From Opitutus sp. GAS368 (GTDB lineage: Bacteria; Verrucomicrobiota; Verrucomicrobiia; Opitutales; Opitutaceae), in the NCBI GenBank assembly GCA_945903465.1, contig CAMDOF010000001.1, positions 62,001 to 126,000 of the forward strand: 64,000 nucleotides of DNA, given 5' to 3'. This document shows positions 8,388-24,000 of this stretch, piece after piece. The notes below the pieces were generated by a model. That model was not told the DNA's origin. It made no database searches and worked only from the letters and a program-made list of their open reading frames with translations. The translations under genes were made by a program, and so were the position numbers. The first letter of the stretch is position 1. Every line of letters starts with the position of its first letter.

Positions 8388-10433
8388 TTATTTTTTAACG
8401 CTTGGGCGTTTCACTTGATAGAAAAAACCATCCTCAGCCCCAATCAGGAGCTGCTGGGTGGTGGCGAAATAGGTGGGCTTGGTGGCGTGGCCCGCCAGGA
8501 CATGGGCACTCACCGGTCCTTCGTCGCGAAAGGCCCATTGCCCTGCCGCATTTTTCCCAAGATTACGAAAAAAATTAACGTTGGGATTACTATTCATCAA
8601 AATATCCACCTTGCCGTCACCGTCCCAATCGACCGTGCAAAAGGTGCGTCGACCGCGACGGCCGTAGATGCCGTCATTGAGGCGCAGCAGGCCCGACTGC
8701 TGATTTTGCGGTTTGCCGTTACTGTCAAAAACGCTCGCGCCTTCACTCCAAAAAATGCGTTGGGCGGCCCCGAGCGCCAACCTGCCGTCAGCCAATCGCT
8801 GGCGTTCGTAAAGTGCGAGGTAACCATCCGGATCCGCCATCAGGAGGTCCATCAGCCCATCACCGTTCCAATCGATCATCTGCGGAGTTGTCCGCCATTG
8901 CGTACTCAATTCTCTCCCTTGCGGTTTCCACCAATTTCCCGCGAGCGCTGGCGTCAGCACGCCCGCCGGTAGGGTAAGTTCGACGGGTTGCCCAGCGGCA
9001 AGTCGCGGCGCGGTGCGTGTGCCGATGTTTTTATACCAAATAATTTTCCCCCAGATGCCATTCGTCATGATGTCGGGCAATCCGTCGCCATCCCAATCGG
9101 CGACGCTCAACACGGAGTAGCCCCACTTCGCTTCAGCGGGACCTTGGATCGATCCATTAAAGCCCGCTTGCTCGCGAATCAACTTACCTCCGGCGCTGAG
9201 ATAGCGCGGTGGCGCCCAGCGCGTCGGCTCACCACCCAGATTCTCGATGAACGCAATATAGCCGGCACTGTTCCCGCTGATTATATCCTCGTCCCCGTCG
9301 CCGTCCCAATCGATCGCATACGGCGTGGCGAGGGCGCCAAACTTCACGTCGGCGGCAAATTGCCGGAAATAACGTGGCGGCAAAAACTGCGGCATACCGC
9401 CAAGCACCTTGCCCGTATTTTCGATGAAAGCCACCCGACCGTCTTCATCCCCGACCACCAGATCAAGATCGCCATCACCATCAAAATCAACCGCCGTCGG
9501 GGTGATCATGCACAAGTCCATCTTGATCGGTAGACCAGCGCTGCTGAGCTGGCGGCCGATCGCGTAAACGGGCTGCGTACGCGTGCCGACATTTTCATAA
9601 TAAGTAAACCCGTCACGAAACTCGCCGCAAATCAGATCAAGCTTCCCTGTGCCGCGGAAATCACCCCACATGGGCGAGGGCATCCCGTAAGGGTCGATGT
9701 CCTTGCCGCCAGCCTGCAGCCGCACCGGCGTCGCGTAGACCGGGTTCGCCGTCGTTCCCTTGTTGCGGAGCAAATACACATAGCCGCGCAACTTGCCCCG
9801 CGTCCATTCACCTTGCGCGTTAAACGCACCTTCGCCGCCATTTAGAGGACCAAAGTCACCCCAAAAATCAATGCCCACGGTCACATCGAGGGCGCCGTCA
9901 CCGTCGTAATCGACGAACTTCCATTGATTCTGCCGGATGTTCCCGGCCTCCGTGTGAATTTTCTCCGGCACGGGAATTTTCACCGGCTGATTAAACTGAG
10001 ACTTCACGAAATCAGGGAAGACGTTGCCCTTGAAATCATAGATGTCACCTCGCTTTGCCGAAGCCGTCGCCGTCACCACCGGAGCGCCATTGATGTAGGA
10101 GATCCCCACGGATGGGGCGGATTTTCCAATTAACACCGCGGGCTTGAAAATCGGCAGTTTTAACTGGGAGTCGACCTGACCGCTGTTCTCAAAAAACCAC
10201 GTGCCGTTCGAAGGTTTGTCTGTGCAAACCACCACGAGGTCCATCAGCCCGTCGCCATTATAATCCATCGGCAATGGCCACGCCCAGAGCCCCACGCCGA
10301 GATCAGCCAGCGCTCCCGGGTTGTGATGCGCGAGACGCGGCATCACATCGGTAGATCCAGCGGCGAGCCCGAACCGTGGCATGAGCATCATTGTGACAAT
10401 TCCGAGCGAGCGGAGCACGAGGGTGTATTTCAT
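8388..10433 (-). CDS. Secreted FG-GAP/VCBS repeat protein
   Basis: This 681-residue exported protein has a signal peptide (about 1-25, ending GLAAG) and at least seven calcium-binding loops of the type D-x-D/N-G-D-x-x-D: DYNGDGLMD, DYDGDGALD, DFDGDGDLD, DWDGDGDED, DWDGDGLPD, DWNGDGLMD and DWDGDGKVD. These occur in integrin-like FG-GAP/VCBS propeller blades. Such proteins in Verrucomicrobia and Planctomycetes often sit in glycan-use loci and may bind or cleave polysaccharide; some polysaccharide lyases share this fold. No catalytic motif is recognisable here. It is 91 bases downstream of the TonB receptor in the same direction and was probably co-transcribed with it, so a role as a surface or periplasmic glycan-binding partner is an inference. 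Confidence 0.85.
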   Translation of the reverse strand: MKYTLVLRSLGIVTMMLMPRFGLAAGSTDVMPRLAHHNPGALADLGVGLWAWPLPMDYNGDGLMDLVVVCTDKPSNGTWFFENSGQVDSQLKLPIFKPAVLIGKSAPSVGISYINGAPVVTATASAKRGDIYDFKGNVFPDFVKSQFNQPVKIPVPEKIHTEAGNIRQNQWKFVDYDGDGALDVTVGIDFWGDFGPLNGGEGAFNAQGEWTRGKLRGYVYLLRNKGTTANPVYATPVRLQAGGKDIDPYGMPSPMWGDFRGTGKLDLICGEFRDGFTYYENVGTRTQPVYAIGRQLSSAGLPIKMDLCMITPTAVDFDGDGDLDLVVGDEDGRVAFIENTGKVLGGMPQFLPPRYFRQFAADVKFGALATPYAIDWDGDGDEDIISGNSAGYIAFIENLGGEPTRWAPPRYLSAGGKLIREQAGFNGSIQGPAEAKWGYSVLSVADWDGDGLPDIMTNGIWGKIIWYKNIGTRTAPRLAAGQPVELTLPAGVLTPALAGNWWKPQGRELSTQWRTTPQMIDWNGDGLMDLLMADPDGYLALYERQRLADGRLALGAAQRIFWSEGASVFDSNGKPQNQQSGLLRLNDGIYGRRGRRTFCTVDWDGDGKVDILMNSNPNVNFFRNLGKNAAGQWAFRDEGPVSAHVLAGHATKPTYFATTQQLLIGAEDGFFYQVKRPSVKK

Positions 10434-13482: not shown

Positions 13483-13884
13483 AAAGGAGGGTTGGTAACA
13501 ACTGCCGACGGGAAACTGATCGGGTACTAACATCAAGGAGAACCTGCTAAATCGATTTTTTTTTAAAGCGCAATTCCTGATTTACTCCAGAACACGGCGC
13601 CGAGCCCCGACTCGGTTGGGCCAAAAGGGATCTCCCCGGGCCCACCGTTTTGAACCGCACGCGGTATCGTGCGATCATGCACCGATCCGTCGTGATCTCC
13701 CCCCCCCGACCAGCGCCCATCGCGCCACCCATGATCCACCCGCCAGCCTGCTGACCCCAGCAATCCAACAATTCCGCCGCCGGCGTCATTGACTCGCTGC
13801 TAAATCAATTTATTTTCCCGAAGGATCCGACTCTGATTTTCGCCCCTCCTGATCTCCAACCCACCAGTCCTTCCGCCAATCTCG
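13483..13884. other. Divergent intergenic region, TonB receptor 1 / glycosidase
   Basis: It must carry promoters for both divergent genes. A short direct repeat CTGCTAAATCRATTT occurs at 13544-13558 and 13797-13811, one near each gene, and could be a shared regulator site. A C9 tract lies at 13699-13707 and a T9 tract near 13556. No gene is seen; the 80-residue antisense ORF has no recognisable features. Confidence 0.5.
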
Positions 13885-16862: not shown

Positions 16863-17188
16863 CGTCCTGCCACTGTCCCCGCTGACTGATCCTCCCGCAC
16901 TAATAAAAAAACGCCGCCATCTTGCAGGTTGACACGCTGGCGATCTTGCCGCGGCATTCGGTTTCCCCACCCCACGCGGCTTGCGCCAAAACGCACGGCG
17001 CTTTCGTCCAAACTCCTCGGAATTTGCCGCGATGCGCTCGTGCGCTTTTACGCAATTTCCAACCACCACGCCCCCCGCACAAAGCCCCCGAGGTGCGCCC
17101 CCCCCACCACTCATCCTCCGCCGGTTACCCGCCATAAAAATCCAATCAAAAAATCGCATTCTTTTAGTATCCATAAAAAAAGCACCTT

Positions 17189-20100
17189 ATGAAACCCAAT
17201 GATCTCGCGAGTCCACCCTGCGCCCCCCCCCGTGCCGCCTGCCTCTCTGCCGGCTTTCGATTGGTCGTTTTTTGCTTGGGAGCTTTTGCCTTAGGTCAGA
17301 GGCTGACACCGGCCCGCGCCGCTGAGGTCAGCACGATCACCGGTTCAGTCAGCAACACCTCCACGGGCAACCTGCTCGAGGGGGCTAAGATCGAAGTCAC
17401 CGCGCTCGGCCTTTCTGTTTTCACCGATAACTCCGGGCGTTTCGTGCTCACGCCGGTGCCGGCCGGTACTCATGAGATCATGGCTTCCTACATCGGGCTC
17501 GACCCCGCCCGCAGCCAGGTGACGGTCGCCGCGGGCGCCCGAGCGGTCCGCAACTTCGATCTGACGGCCGGTGTCTATAAACTTGATGCCTTTAAAGTCA
17601 CCGGTGATCGGGAAGGGGCCGCCTCCGCGATTACCGCACAGCGCAACGCCTTCAACGTGAAGAACGTGGTCGCGATGGATTCATTTGGCAATCTGCCGAA
17701 CCGCAGCGTGGGCGAAGTCGCCATCCGCCTGCCCGGAGTTGCTGGCGGGCTCGATGCGGAGGGTAACGTCACCAGTCTGACGATCCGCGGCATGGGTCCG
17801 GGGCTCAACGCCACGACCGCGGACAACACGCTCATGGCCAGCGAGGGCGGCGGAGGCCGTAGTTTCCCCATGAGCGTTCTCACCGGTGCCTTGTTCGAGT
17901 CGGTCGAACTCATTAAAGGGCAGACTCCGGACAAGAGCGCCGAATCGATGGGTGGCACGCTGAATCTCAAAACTCGATCAGCACTCAGCATGGCGGAAAA
18001 ACGCCGCCTTACCTACAATTTCTCCGGTCGACTCGCCCCGTCTTTTACCGAGCAAATCCCGTATCGCGAGCAACACCGTCTTCATCCGCTTTTTAATTTC
18101 GGTTACAATGAGATCTTCAACGTGCTCGGCGGCGAGCGGAACCTCGGCGTCGTCGTAAATATATTCTACAGCGAGAACGTCGCCGGCATGTTTCAAACGA
18201 CCCGAGATTATCAAACCACCAATACCAATCCCGCCTATCTCTTTGATTATGTCACCCAGGATATTTATAACAACCGCAAGCAGAACAGCGGAAACGTTAA
18301 GGTGGAGTACCGCCTGTCGCCTTTTACAAAGTGGTGGGCCAGCGGCCAGGCTAGCGCGAACGACGAGCCGTTCGAAAACCGCTACTTGACGCGCGCTTTC
18401 TCCGCGAATTCGACCGGCACAACGGGCACCGCGGGGGTCCTGCCTGGCTACACCGATAAAATCACCCAGATCCGCGCCAGTACCGGATCAAACATTGACG
18501 TCACCAACTCGCGCTACGTCGGTTGGAACCAGCAACTGCGCAACGCGGGCATCGGGGCCGAGCACCAATGGGGACCGCTCCTGGTTGATTACAGCGCCAA
18601 TTACAGCTCAGCGCGGATTCTTTCCAGCCGGCAACACGATGGCCAACTCGTCATGCGGGTGAGTAATATCGGTTGGATCCTCGACCGCACGCCGTCCGAT
18701 CTCTACCCGCGATTCACCCAAACGGAGGGAGCCGATCTGACCAATCCGAACAACTACCGCCCTACTGCCAACGGCCTTAACAACCGCGACAATGGCATGA
18801 TCCAGGTCATCCGGCAGTTTCAGGCCAACCTTCGCTATGATCTGCCGATCCTCGCGCCAGTCTTCGTCAAGGGCGGCGCCAGCTGGCGGCAGCAAACCCT
18901 CGCAAATTGGGCGAAGACTCGGCGCTGGAGCTATATTGGCACCGCCCCGTTAGCTTCCGAACCGACGATCCAGACGATGGAAATGATCAAGACCGGCCGA
19001 CGCGTACCACTTTGGCAGACCGACTCGTTTATCAAAGGAGGTCTTCCCGTCACTCCAGCGCTCTGGGCCGAAGATCTCTACTACCGCGCCATCACCCCTT
19101 ACACGGGCAACAACTGGACGAGCGAGATCGTACCGGCCGGCTACCTGATGGCGCAGGGTCGATTGGGCCAAGCCGGACTGCTTGGACACACGGGCTTCTT
19201 GGCGGGCGTACGCACCGAAAAAACGGAAAACGACGGCTTTGGCTGGGTAAAGGCGCGGATCGGCGCCACCGCTGCTCAGCAACTCGTCGATCCAGAGGGT
19301 TCGGCTCAACGCGACTACGCCAACACCCGGCGCGTGATCCAGGGCAGCTACACCAAGTCATTCCCGAGCATCCACCTTCACCACGATATCATACCCGATC
19401 TCAAGGCGCGCCTCAGCTGGTCGACAAGTTTCGGACGACCTAATATGAGCAACCTGCGCCCGAGCGAAAGCGTTAACGAAACCGCCCGCACGCTGACAAT
19501 CAGTAACCCGAGCCTCCTCCCCCAAGTCGGCACTAATTGGGACGCCACGCTCGAATATTATTTTGAACCCGTGGGCAATTTCTCCATCGGCTGGTTCCGC
19601 AAGCAAATCAAAGACTACATCGTCAGCGGCATCGAATCAGGCACGGTCACCAGCGGCAACAGCAACGGCTTTAACGGTGACTACGAGGGCTTCTCAATCC
19701 GCAGCACGGCCAATGCTGGTACCGCTTTCGTTCAGGGCTGGGAGGCCAGCTACCAGCAGCAATTTACTTTCCTGCCCGGCTTACTGAAGGGCCTGAGCGT
19801 CGGCGCCAATTTCACTTTGCTCAACACCCATGGCGACTTCGGTGGCACGACCTACCTCGGCAGCGGCCAAATCCAAGGGTTCATTCCGCGGACGGGTAAC
19901 GTTAACTTTGCCTGGCGCTATCGGAGCTTCAACGCTCGCGCCCTCATCAACCACACCGGCGAGTACCTCACCAGCTACTCAGCTCTCGACGCTTCGAGAA
20001 ACCTGTATCGCTATGCACGCACGACGATTAATATCGGGATGGAGTATCGGTTCCGCCCAACGGCCACGTTGACCCTCGATATTTCCAATCCCAACGGAGT

Positions 20101-21032: not shown

Positions 21033-24000
21033 ATGAATTCGTTCCGCAAAACCTTACTGTCGCAGGTCGTCGGGGCCCTCTCCCTACTCCCTTCCGCGCA
21101 TGCCATGAACCATCCGAGCACTGGGCCGGACATCCGAGCGTTTGCGGCGCTAGAAGCGGCCGGTGGGCTGGCCCCTGGGGGGGGTGTGCCGAACTTTCGG
21201 CTGACAGACCATCGCGGCGTCACGCGCGAGCTCTATTACGAGGCGAACGCCAAAGTTATTGTGCTCGTTTTTACCGGTGCTGGCCAGACGCGAGCCGTGC
21301 AAACGGCCGCGACCCTCCGGGCTTTGCGTGCGAAATTTTCGGCAAATGACGTCGTGATCTGGCAAATCGACGCGAACGTTGCGGCTAATCGCAACCTTAT
21401 CGTAGCCGAGCAAACGTTGGTGAATAATGAGACACCGGTCTTGATCGACGAAGCGCAATTGGTCGCGACTGAACTTGGGGCGACCCGCCAACTGGAGACA
21501 TTCGTAATCGGACCTCCGCCTTTTGCTAATCTCATCTACCGAGGCCCCCTCGACAACGCAGACCCAACCGGCTTAGGGGCTGCCACCGAACACTACGTCG
21601 CAAACGCGATCACGGAGACGCTGGCAAGTCGCACCCTCGCGACGCCGCGGGTTGAGCTGAGTGCCCAGGCGGAGCGGCTCGATCTTCCACCCGTGCCCGC
21701 GGCCAACTATGCCACGGACGTCGCGCCCATCGTGCAGCGGCGCTGTGTTTCCTGCCACTCCGCCGGTAATATCGCGCCGCATGTCTACGCGAAGTTCGCG
21801 GACCTTGAGCAGCGCGCCTTCCAGATTCGCGCGGATATGCTCGTGAAGCGGATGGCTCCTTGGCACGCCGATGCGCAATTCGGCGTCTTTAGCAACGACG
21901 TCGCCCTCACTCCGGCCGAAAGCGCCACGCTGCACGCTTGGGCGCGCAACGGCGCGAGCCGCGGCACCGGGCCCGATCCTTTAGCTACTCCCCCTGCCGC
22001 CACCGCTGATTGGCCCTTGGGCAAACCCGATCTCATTCTTACCCTCCCTAAAAAGGAAATTCCTGCGAAGGGCACGCTCAGCTATGAATATCCTGAACTC
22101 GAAATTCCAATTACAGAGGATAAGTGGATCCGCGCGACAGTCGTGAAACCCGGCAACCGCTCCGTCGTCCACCACGCCCTCGTCCTCGAAGGTTCCCAGA
22201 TCGAGTTACTGCTGAATGCCCTGCGAACCGGTGAGCTACCCGGGCTGAGCGGTTTCTTCGCCGGTTACGTACCCGGGTTGGCCCAGACCTGGCTGCCTGA
22301 GGGAGTCAGCAAGTTGATCAGGAAAAACTCCAAGCTCACGGTGCAGATGCATTACACGACGACCGGACGAGCGGAGACCGACGAAACTCAGGTGGGAATA
22401 TACTTCGCGGCGACACCTCCGGCGCGGGAACTTTTCACAAAATCAGTCGCCACCACCAACATCGCGATTCCGGCGGGCGCGAAGGAATACGCGCGCGAGG
22501 CGACCTTCGTGCCTTCGGCGACGCGCGATGTGATGCTTTACGAACTCAATCCCCACATGCATTACCGGGGCAAGCGCTTCCGATTTGATGCGGTCTATCC
22601 GGATGGCACCAGCGAAGTGCTGCTCAATGTGCCCCAGTACGACTTCGCGTGGCAAACCGGCTATCGCCTTGAACAGCCGAAGCGCTTACCCGCCGGCACG
22701 ATCATCAAAGCGTACGGCGCATTCGATAATTCACCCCAGAACCCCGCGAACCCGGACCCGCGCGTGGCCGTCCGATTTGGCGAACAAACCAACGACGAAA
22801 TGTTCATCGGCTACGTAAACTACACGGAACTACCCACGCGCGCCCTCACCACTCCCCCAACGATCTCGGAAAATCGGACGGCGCGAGCTCAGGTCGGGGA
22901 CCCCGTACGCCTTGATTTCCGTGCCACCGGAACTGGAGTCACCTACCGCGCGAGCGCGCTGCCGGCCGGCCTCCAGTTTGCCAGCGCCACGGGCACGCTC
23001 ACGGGCTCACCGACCACCGCGGGGCGCCATGCGCTCGTAATCACCGCCGAGAATAGCGCCGGGGCGGCCGCGACCCAACTCGATTTATTCATCATGCCAC
23101 GCCCAGGAGCGCCGGTCTTCACCCAGCAACCCCTCAGCGCGCGCGCGCGTATCGGCGAAACGGTAACACTCACCGCCGCGGTCGCCGCAGGCACCGCACC
23201 GACTTACACGTGGTACTTCCGGGGAGGAGAATTTTGCAACACCGAGTCCCCCGTCCTGACACTCAACAAAATCACGGCTGCGTATGCGGGTGATTATGTC
23301 TGCGTCGCGGCCAATGCGGCTGGCGTGACCCGGAGCGCGCCAGCCACGCTTACCCTCGAATTTAGCGGGCTCGTGAACCTCTCGGCCCGTGCCAATGTGG
23401 GCATCAACGCCAATGTAGTTATTCCCGGCATCACCATCAGGGGGACCCAGCCCAAAACGCTCCTGATCCGCGCGGCCGGGCCCGCCCTGACAAACTTCGG
23501 AATCACGGGAGCGCTGGCCAACCCCGTCGTCAGCATTTTCACGGCAGCGGGCGACAAAATCCTCGCCAACGACAACTGGAGCGAAGCGCCCGACGTGGCC
23601 GCGCTCCGCAGCGCCGCCGTCAAGCAAGGTGCCTTCGCTCTGCCCGAGAATGGCCGCGACGCGGCGATGCTCGTAACGTTACCGCCCGGCGGCTACACCG
23701 TGCAAGTCGCAGGCGCGGGCACTGGCGGAGCCGCCCTCGGTCTGGCCATCGTCGAAGTCTACGAAGCCGACGCCGGAGCGAGCAGCCTTGTTAATCTCTC
23801 CTGCCGGGCGCGGGTGGGCACGGGGGAAGACATTCTGATCGCCGGTTTCAACATCAGCGGGGCCGATGCCAAGCGCGTCCTCATCCGCGCCGTCGGCCCC
23901 ACGCTCGCCGCGCTCGGCATCACCGGTCCACTCGTTGATCCCAAGCTCGAACTGATTCGCCAAGGTGTCCCGGCAGCATCTGCGACGGTGGCGACCAATG

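Follow-up and report, generated by a model that had tools for sequence, protein, structure and literature searches.

The receptor gene at 17189 and its poly-C tract

The analysed window, by which we mean the whole stretch of 64,000 nucleotides, contains at 17189 an open reading frame for a TonB-dependent receptor (TBDT) whose translation is intact up to the stop (Table 1). The receptor has a SusC-like layout, in which a signal peptide predicted by inspection is followed by CarboxypepD_reg (residues 49-126), Plug (residues 158-256) and beta-barrel (residues 506-967) domains, the last three matched by Pfam above curated cut-offs. Direct reading of the window sequence gave nine C bases from 17223, and in the frame set by ATG 17189 the codons across them are GCC CCC CCC CGT (A12 P13 P14 R15). 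The tract is located upstream of the signal-peptide hydrophobic core RLVVFCLGAFALG in the translation. Sequence and translation thus confirmed the initial annotation, which had placed a C9 in receptor codons 12-15, before the core.

Table 1. Coordinates of the receptor genes, C runs and neighbouring features in the window
Feature	Start	End	Strand	Remarks
TonB-dependent receptor ORF	10525	13482	-	likely start Met19 of listed 1,003-aa ORF
C9 run	13699	13707	+	divergent intergenic region between minus-strand TBDT and plus-strand ORF with GH67N domain
ORF, 836 aa	13885	16395	+	borderline GH67 N-terminal domain match, 24.3 bits (equal to cut-off)
C8 run	17098	17105	+	non-coding, begins 91 nt upstream of the ATG of the 17189 receptor
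TonB-dependent receptor (TBDT) ORF, 1,001 aa	17189	20194	+	Pfam above cut-off, intact translation
Signal peptide, predicted by inspection	17189	17320	+	long n-region with C9, core RLVVFCLGAFALG, ARA/AE
C9 homopolymer	17223	17231	+	codons 12-15, A-P-P-R
C9 run	34325	34333	+	non-coding, ends 14 nt before ATG 34348 of another TBDT
TonB-dependent receptor ORF, 997 aa	34348	37341	+	Pfam and translation

The effect of tract length was followed by translation only. A C8 variant would stop at codon 35 and a C10 variant at codon 46, and the frame is open again in a C12 variant. Inspection of the translations revealed no downstream start that would restore a full signal peptide after a slip. The earlier claim that a single-base slip would shift the frame held in translation, with early stops in both shifted frames.

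The closest ortholog of the receptor is encoded in a groundwater MAG (L091) and is 78% identical in amino acid sequence over the best segment, with residues 10-1001 matched; an identical N-terminus is present in a further genome (G208). This ortholog begins MKAINPAVPRSFPRAS... at nearly equal distance from the mature protein, shares the MK start, and has an n-region and core laid out as in the signal peptide of the 17189 receptor. At the position of the C9 it has a C5. The nearest relative is another species with C5 at the tract position, and no second genome of the same species was present among the database matches to the receptor region. The search with the 5' region returned 29 other loci, in 14 of which, ortholog included, the N-terminus was readable by motif search. 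None of these 14 genus or paralog N-termini has a C/G run of at least 8 in its 5' coding part, the longest run being a C7 (L260), and retention of the tract in orthologs was not found. Because the ortholog starts alike with C5 and none of the 14 N-termini has such a run, the upstream start at 17189 is supported and the C9 is, as judged from these alignments, a young, derived and unconserved tract.

The C9 would be irrelevant to the protein if the true start lay downstream of it or if its length were an assembly error. An in-frame TTG is available at 17261, a Shine-Dalgarno motif before ATG 17189 is not obvious by eye, and the genome was assembled as 343 contigs. However, initiation at 17261 would leave the core without a charged n-region, and the ortholog retains its ATG-MK at almost the corresponding distance. 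Moreover, the C9 keeps the frame open, and two of every three miscounts should break it. We consider this explanation highly improbable; the downstream start, which the initial annotation had raised against its own proposal, is disfavoured by both the ortholog start and the missing n-region.

C/G tracts in the window, the genome and receptor 5' regions

The count of C9/G9 tracts in the window was exactly three (at 13699, 17223 and 34325), all in TBDT 5' regions, the initial annotation having placed them in or near such regions, and only the tract at 17223 is coding. Between the tract at 13699 and the Met19 at which the minus-strand TBDT likely starts (about 13482) there are about 217 nt, the tract being on the 5' side. 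Each of the three window TBDTs, with Plug scores of 29.5, 31.2 and 38.1 bits, has a C9 no more than about 225 nt away. Runs of eight are found at 17098 and 56372 (C8) and at 21177 and 42684 (G8). Base composition predicts about 2.7 tracts of at least nine in total (about 2.4 of C and 0.3 of G), close to the "about two" of the initial annotation. The order-2 Markov model, which accounts for the rare extension of C runs in the window, predicts 0.42 C and 0.06 G tracts versus 3 and 0 seen. No tract of at least nine was found in ten 20-kb stretches chosen regardless of tracts, where 1.2 were expected. The window is locally rich in C9 tracts, in a comparison that is post hoc.

The 8.16-Mb genome (G000) gave 102 overlapping C9 matches, 100 of which correspond to at least 83 distinct C/G tracts of at least nine bases (70 of length 9, 10 of 10, 2 of 11 and 1 of 12), versus about 50 expected under the order-2 model scaled from the ten unselected stretches. 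In these stretches, 48, 11 and 4 runs of at least 6, 7 and 8 were seen versus about 85, 21 and 5 expected. The shorter runs thus do not exceed expectation, and the excess is confined to the longest runs, a pattern that fits slippage-driven growth. A C9 was found in 56 of the 57 genomes searched, G000 included, and the number of overlapping C9 matches in the relatives ranged from 0 to 391 per genome. The C9-type tract is common, not rare, in this genome.

Coding sequence avoids C/G runs about three-fold. Compared with synonymous randomisation over 572 called genes, 124 runs of length 6 were seen versus 379 expected, followed by 24 versus 95 for length 7 and 13 versus 33 for length 8; for runs of at least 9, 10 were seen versus 13.6 expected, the seen count being inflated by tract-centred sampling. 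A second coding 5' C9 like that at 17223 was observed at L139:3546-3554 (G000:C209), directly following the ATG and in frame, in a gene for a BNR-repeat protein whose start is signal-peptide-like.

The genome is extremely rich in receptors, with several hundred TBDT candidates: 427 Plug candidates were obtained at first look, and the best 150 all scored over the cut-off. The relation of tracts to TBDT 5' ends was analysed in a 1.12-Mb sample composed of stretches of up to 20 kb, mostly tract-selected, plus the ten unselected stretches and the window. The sample has 57 TBDT anchors, whose 5' zones of 450 nt cover 2.3% of the sequence, and 82 of the 83 tracts of at least nine were examined (C144:20028 is outside the examined set). 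With the window counted, 11 of 82 tracts were located in TBDT 5' zones, 9 of the 11 being sense C. Outside the window the figure was 8 of 79, against 2.3% of the sequence (binomial 0.0005), and for non-coding tracts outside the window it was 5 of 47 with 4.6% expected (about 0.07). The share of runs in TBDT zones was 53/1,624, 18/247, 8/60 and 9/36 for lengths 5, 6, 7 and 8, respectively, a rise with run length that rests on the tract-chosen sample. Strong enrichment at TBDT starts, as the 9/36 runs of 8 and the 11/82 tracts of at least 9 would indicate, is to be read with caution, as the sample was built around tracts.

A control with 138 usable TBDT 5' zones (-300 to +100) was taken from the best 150 of the 427 Plug candidates, 12 matches being dropped because the start was not recognisable. 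None of the 138 zones has a tract of at least nine, and three have a C8. All control receptors score at least 47.6 bits for Plug, above those of the window (29.5-38.1), and the null count is compatible with the census rate of 11 tracts for about 427 TBDTs, which predicts about 3 among the 138. A reading of the control as refuting the location argument is too strong, given the about 3 expected and the restriction to higher-Plug receptors. The location argument is mixed, neither established nor refuted, because the comparison with all sequence favours it, the comparison with non-coding sequence is weak and the control zones count against it. The location that had been called striking therefore stands out from the sequence as a whole but hardly from its non-coding part.

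The tract may also be a by-product of base composition, the sense strand being generally rich in C and poor in G across TBDT leaders and the first part of the coding regions; this would make for an unstructured leader, possibly as a Rho-loading or translation feature. The sense strand at -30 to 0 has a C fraction of 0.39 and a G fraction of 0.16 in 27 TBDT leaders versus 0.34 and 0.22 in 275 others, and the runs of 6-8 in the sampled TBDT 5' zones are 34 sense C and 1 sense G. The C-richness of the leaders goes with the sense-C bias of the tracts. However, composition-keeping shuffles of 108 of the 138 control zones gave more runs than were seen, with about 5.9 of length 8 and about 3.4 tracts of at least 9 expected versus 1 and 0 seen in the same zones, and we regard the by-product explanation as quite unlikely. 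A C-rich, G-poor sense strand just before the start is present, for example, at window positions 17000-17188 and is a candidate for leader regulation.

A C-rich repeat of about 330 bp with about 80% identity between copies was observed in TBDT leaders of G000 (L102:10436-10776, L139:1294-1616, L109:1930-2244 and L123:7918-8242). A search of the genome with one copy gave at least 40 strong matches (40/40 scored, from 275 first-look candidates). For 15 of the 30 copies examined, a TBDT anchor follows on the same strand 97-446 nt downstream, and several of the other 15 are near contig ends. Among the candidates scored (16-26 in each of the other genomes), near-full-length copies were found only in G000 of the 27 genus genomes; six of the other 26 contain pieces of 26-66 bp, mostly of the 3' end, and a 146-bp part with 79% identity is present in L062 of G112, which belongs to another genus of the family (Opitutaceae). 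The 3' core has a C run of variable length, from C1 to C12 in 33 occurrences. A profile search did not detect the repeat at the three receptors of the window, and its role as a source of the window tracts was rejected, the one weak window match (8712-8768, E 0.003) being away from the tracts. At gathering score, Rfam matched nothing in the window or in L102, L139 and L109, and no convincing RNA structure of the repeat was obtained from 19 sequences, where one of 14 pairs showed a two-sided change.

The 3' core of about 50 bp, consisting of a C-run followed by GCAAATCCAGTTTCCTA, recurs alone or closely spaced in several genus genomes (G214:C137:12797-12938; single matches in G210, G208, G201 and G202), and further sites are located at L102:14046-14265 and L129:11077-11123. 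In G000, the core often precedes a palindromic AAAATCGGATTTTGGCC unit and a GAAAGAAAC...GTTTCTT inverted repeat. It resembles a family of dispersed intergenic repeats.

Possible tract instability and explanations of the C9

Frame breaks were counted at coding runs with strongly coding sequence on both flanks, runs shorter than 9 being counted in the 1.12-Mb sample. The frame was broken at 30 of 3,023 runs of length 4-7, at 1 of 3 runs of length 8 and at 2 of 7 tracts of at least 9, the last with a binomial value of about 0.002 in a small set (n = 7). The break at the run of 8 (L120) is the junction of two neighbouring genes. One of the two breaks at tracts of at least 9 is in L111, which we take to resemble an IS transposase. 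The other is in a TBDT with a G11 at C156:9952 (L130:9952-9962, G000:C156), where two open frames overlap; their combined length is that of a receptor with the end ...WTFGVRGSF. The ortholog in G205 (L302), with 75% DNA identity, has no tract and is in frame across the place of the G11 (90 residues compared). The G11 receptor is thus a candidate for an OFF state, a pseudogene or an assembly error, and the frame breaks at tracts of at least 9 suggest instability or assembly error in tract length.

Two other proposals were rejected. L099:616-930 (C47:921 of G000, near a contig end) was considered as an OFF phase, its signal peptide being out of frame with the body across the C9. Downstream of the tract there are more frame changes and then, by eye, unrelated-looking sequence, and the locus was treated as a decayed TBDT-like remnant; its tract stays in the count of 8 of 79 for TBDT zones. 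Repair deficiency was the second. A MutS_V match is present in the genome (MutS_V alone was looked for), and general repair loss is not indicated.

The best explanation, which we hold to be probable by a modest measure, is that the C9 is a recent, drift-derived slippage hot spot, neither kept nor used as a switch. The tract would have arisen recently by drift, in a signal-peptide n-region that drifts fast and belongs to an intact TBDT, and it would be a probable mutational hot spot where replication slippage now and then adds or drops a C. Such a slip would lead to the stop at codon 46 or 35 and to receptor-negative cells, and this state would be reversible through another slip. We infer an appreciable slip rate at this C9. 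The drift explanation is based on the C5 of the ortholog, the 14 N-termini with no comparable run, the commonness of tracts in the genome, the 138 zones with no tract and a probability of about 0.06 for a C9 by synonymous choice given A-P-P-R and the codon use of this genome. Against it are the C9 at all three window TBDTs, the position of 8 of the 79 tracts outside the window in TBDT zones, the at least 83 tracts versus about 50 expected, and the three-fold avoidance of C/G runs in coding sequence.

A true contingency locus, in which slippage at the C9 would turn the receptor ON or OFF frequently while selection by phage, bacteriocins or substrate changes retains the tract, is possible but doubtful. 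All the sequence features required are present at 17223, namely a homopolymer of a length that slips elsewhere (G9 in Akkermansia), inside an open reading frame, with a one-unit change giving, by translation only, a frameshift to an early stop. In the same phylum, the G9 of Akkermansia muciniphila Amuc_1413 is reported to phase-vary (PMC13055324), and meningococcal hmbR is reported to be ON mainly at 9 Gs (PMC3786947). The contingency explanation is also favoured by the 2 of 7 coding tracts of at least 9 that break frame versus 30/3,023 runs of 4-7, one of the two being the G11 TBDT, and, outside the window, by the 8 tracts of 79 that are near TBDT starts. However, the C9 is not conserved, with C5 in the closest ortholog, none of the 138 high-scoring TBDT 5' zones has a tract of at least 9, and the MutS_V match does not indicate general repair loss. 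More weight is given to the drift-derived hot spot than to the selected contingency locus. The initial annotation had proposed a candidate phase-variable locus; the intact frame, the supported start, a length that slips elsewhere and the early stops stood, and the C5 of the ortholog and the 14 N-termini spoke against it. The C9 at 17223 is plausibly a slippage hot spot and, as a switch, a candidate only.

A more general scheme, which we judge unlikely, is that slippage at scattered young C/G tracts of at least 9 toggles single receptors; the sequence would then show the C9 receptor in its ON state and the C156:9952 receptor in its OFF state. If true, such toggling would amount to a population-level lottery over the receptors displayed. 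If the C9 is variable, homopolymer phase variation of TonB receptors would extend beyond host-adapted bacteria to an environmental member of the Verrucomicrobiota whose set of receptors is very large. If it has merely drifted, caution is advised, as C-rich genomes with hundreds of receptors would yield a start-proximal C9 without a switch.

Comparison with known homopolymer systems

For the systems considered here, it is relevant that the Bordetella pertussis genome is GC-rich and that HmbR is TonB-dependent. C/G runs longer than 8 in B. pertussis are reported to exceed order-2 Markov expectation, as long C/G runs do in G000, and 6 of 9 tested homopolymer loci were polymorphic (PMC1891110). 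The polymorphism in B. pertussis was measured in isolates (PMC1891110), whereas the tract at 17223 is known from one sequence. Runs near gene starts are described as inactivating efficiently by frameshift across prokaryotes; the 5' enrichment reported there is for poly(A)/poly(T) (PMC2831843), whereas the tract at 17223 is poly-C.

The hmbR gene of Neisseria meningitidis is reported to be ON at lengths divisible by three, 9 being the commonest (PMC3786947). Both hmbR and the gene at 17189 are receptor genes with an in-frame homopolymer, a G tract with a commonest ON length of 9 in the case of hmbR (PMC3786947). In contrast, the poly-G of the haemoglobin receptor genes hmbR and hpuA is reported to be shared among isolates, with lengths of 4 to 18 or more across both genes (PMC3786947), whereas the nearest ortholog of the 17189 receptor lacks the 17223 tract.

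Among the literature matches listed, no case of homopolymer phase variation of a TBDT in Verrucomicrobia appeared at the level of title and abstract, and the nearest case among them is the EPS-type gene of Akkermansia. According to the published account, the G9 tract of Amuc_1413 in A. muciniphila gains a G, with the change in 87-91% of reads, and of 100 genomes examined, 32 have 9G, three have 8G and one has 10G (PMC13055324). Amuc_1413 is an EPS-export-type gene and its variation was seen in culture, reads and genomes (PMC13055324), whereas the gene at 17189 encodes a TBDT and its tract is known from one sequence. The two share the phylum, a nine-base C/G run early in a cell-surface-related gene, and early truncation after a single-base slip (PMC13055324), which at 17223 is predicted by translation only.
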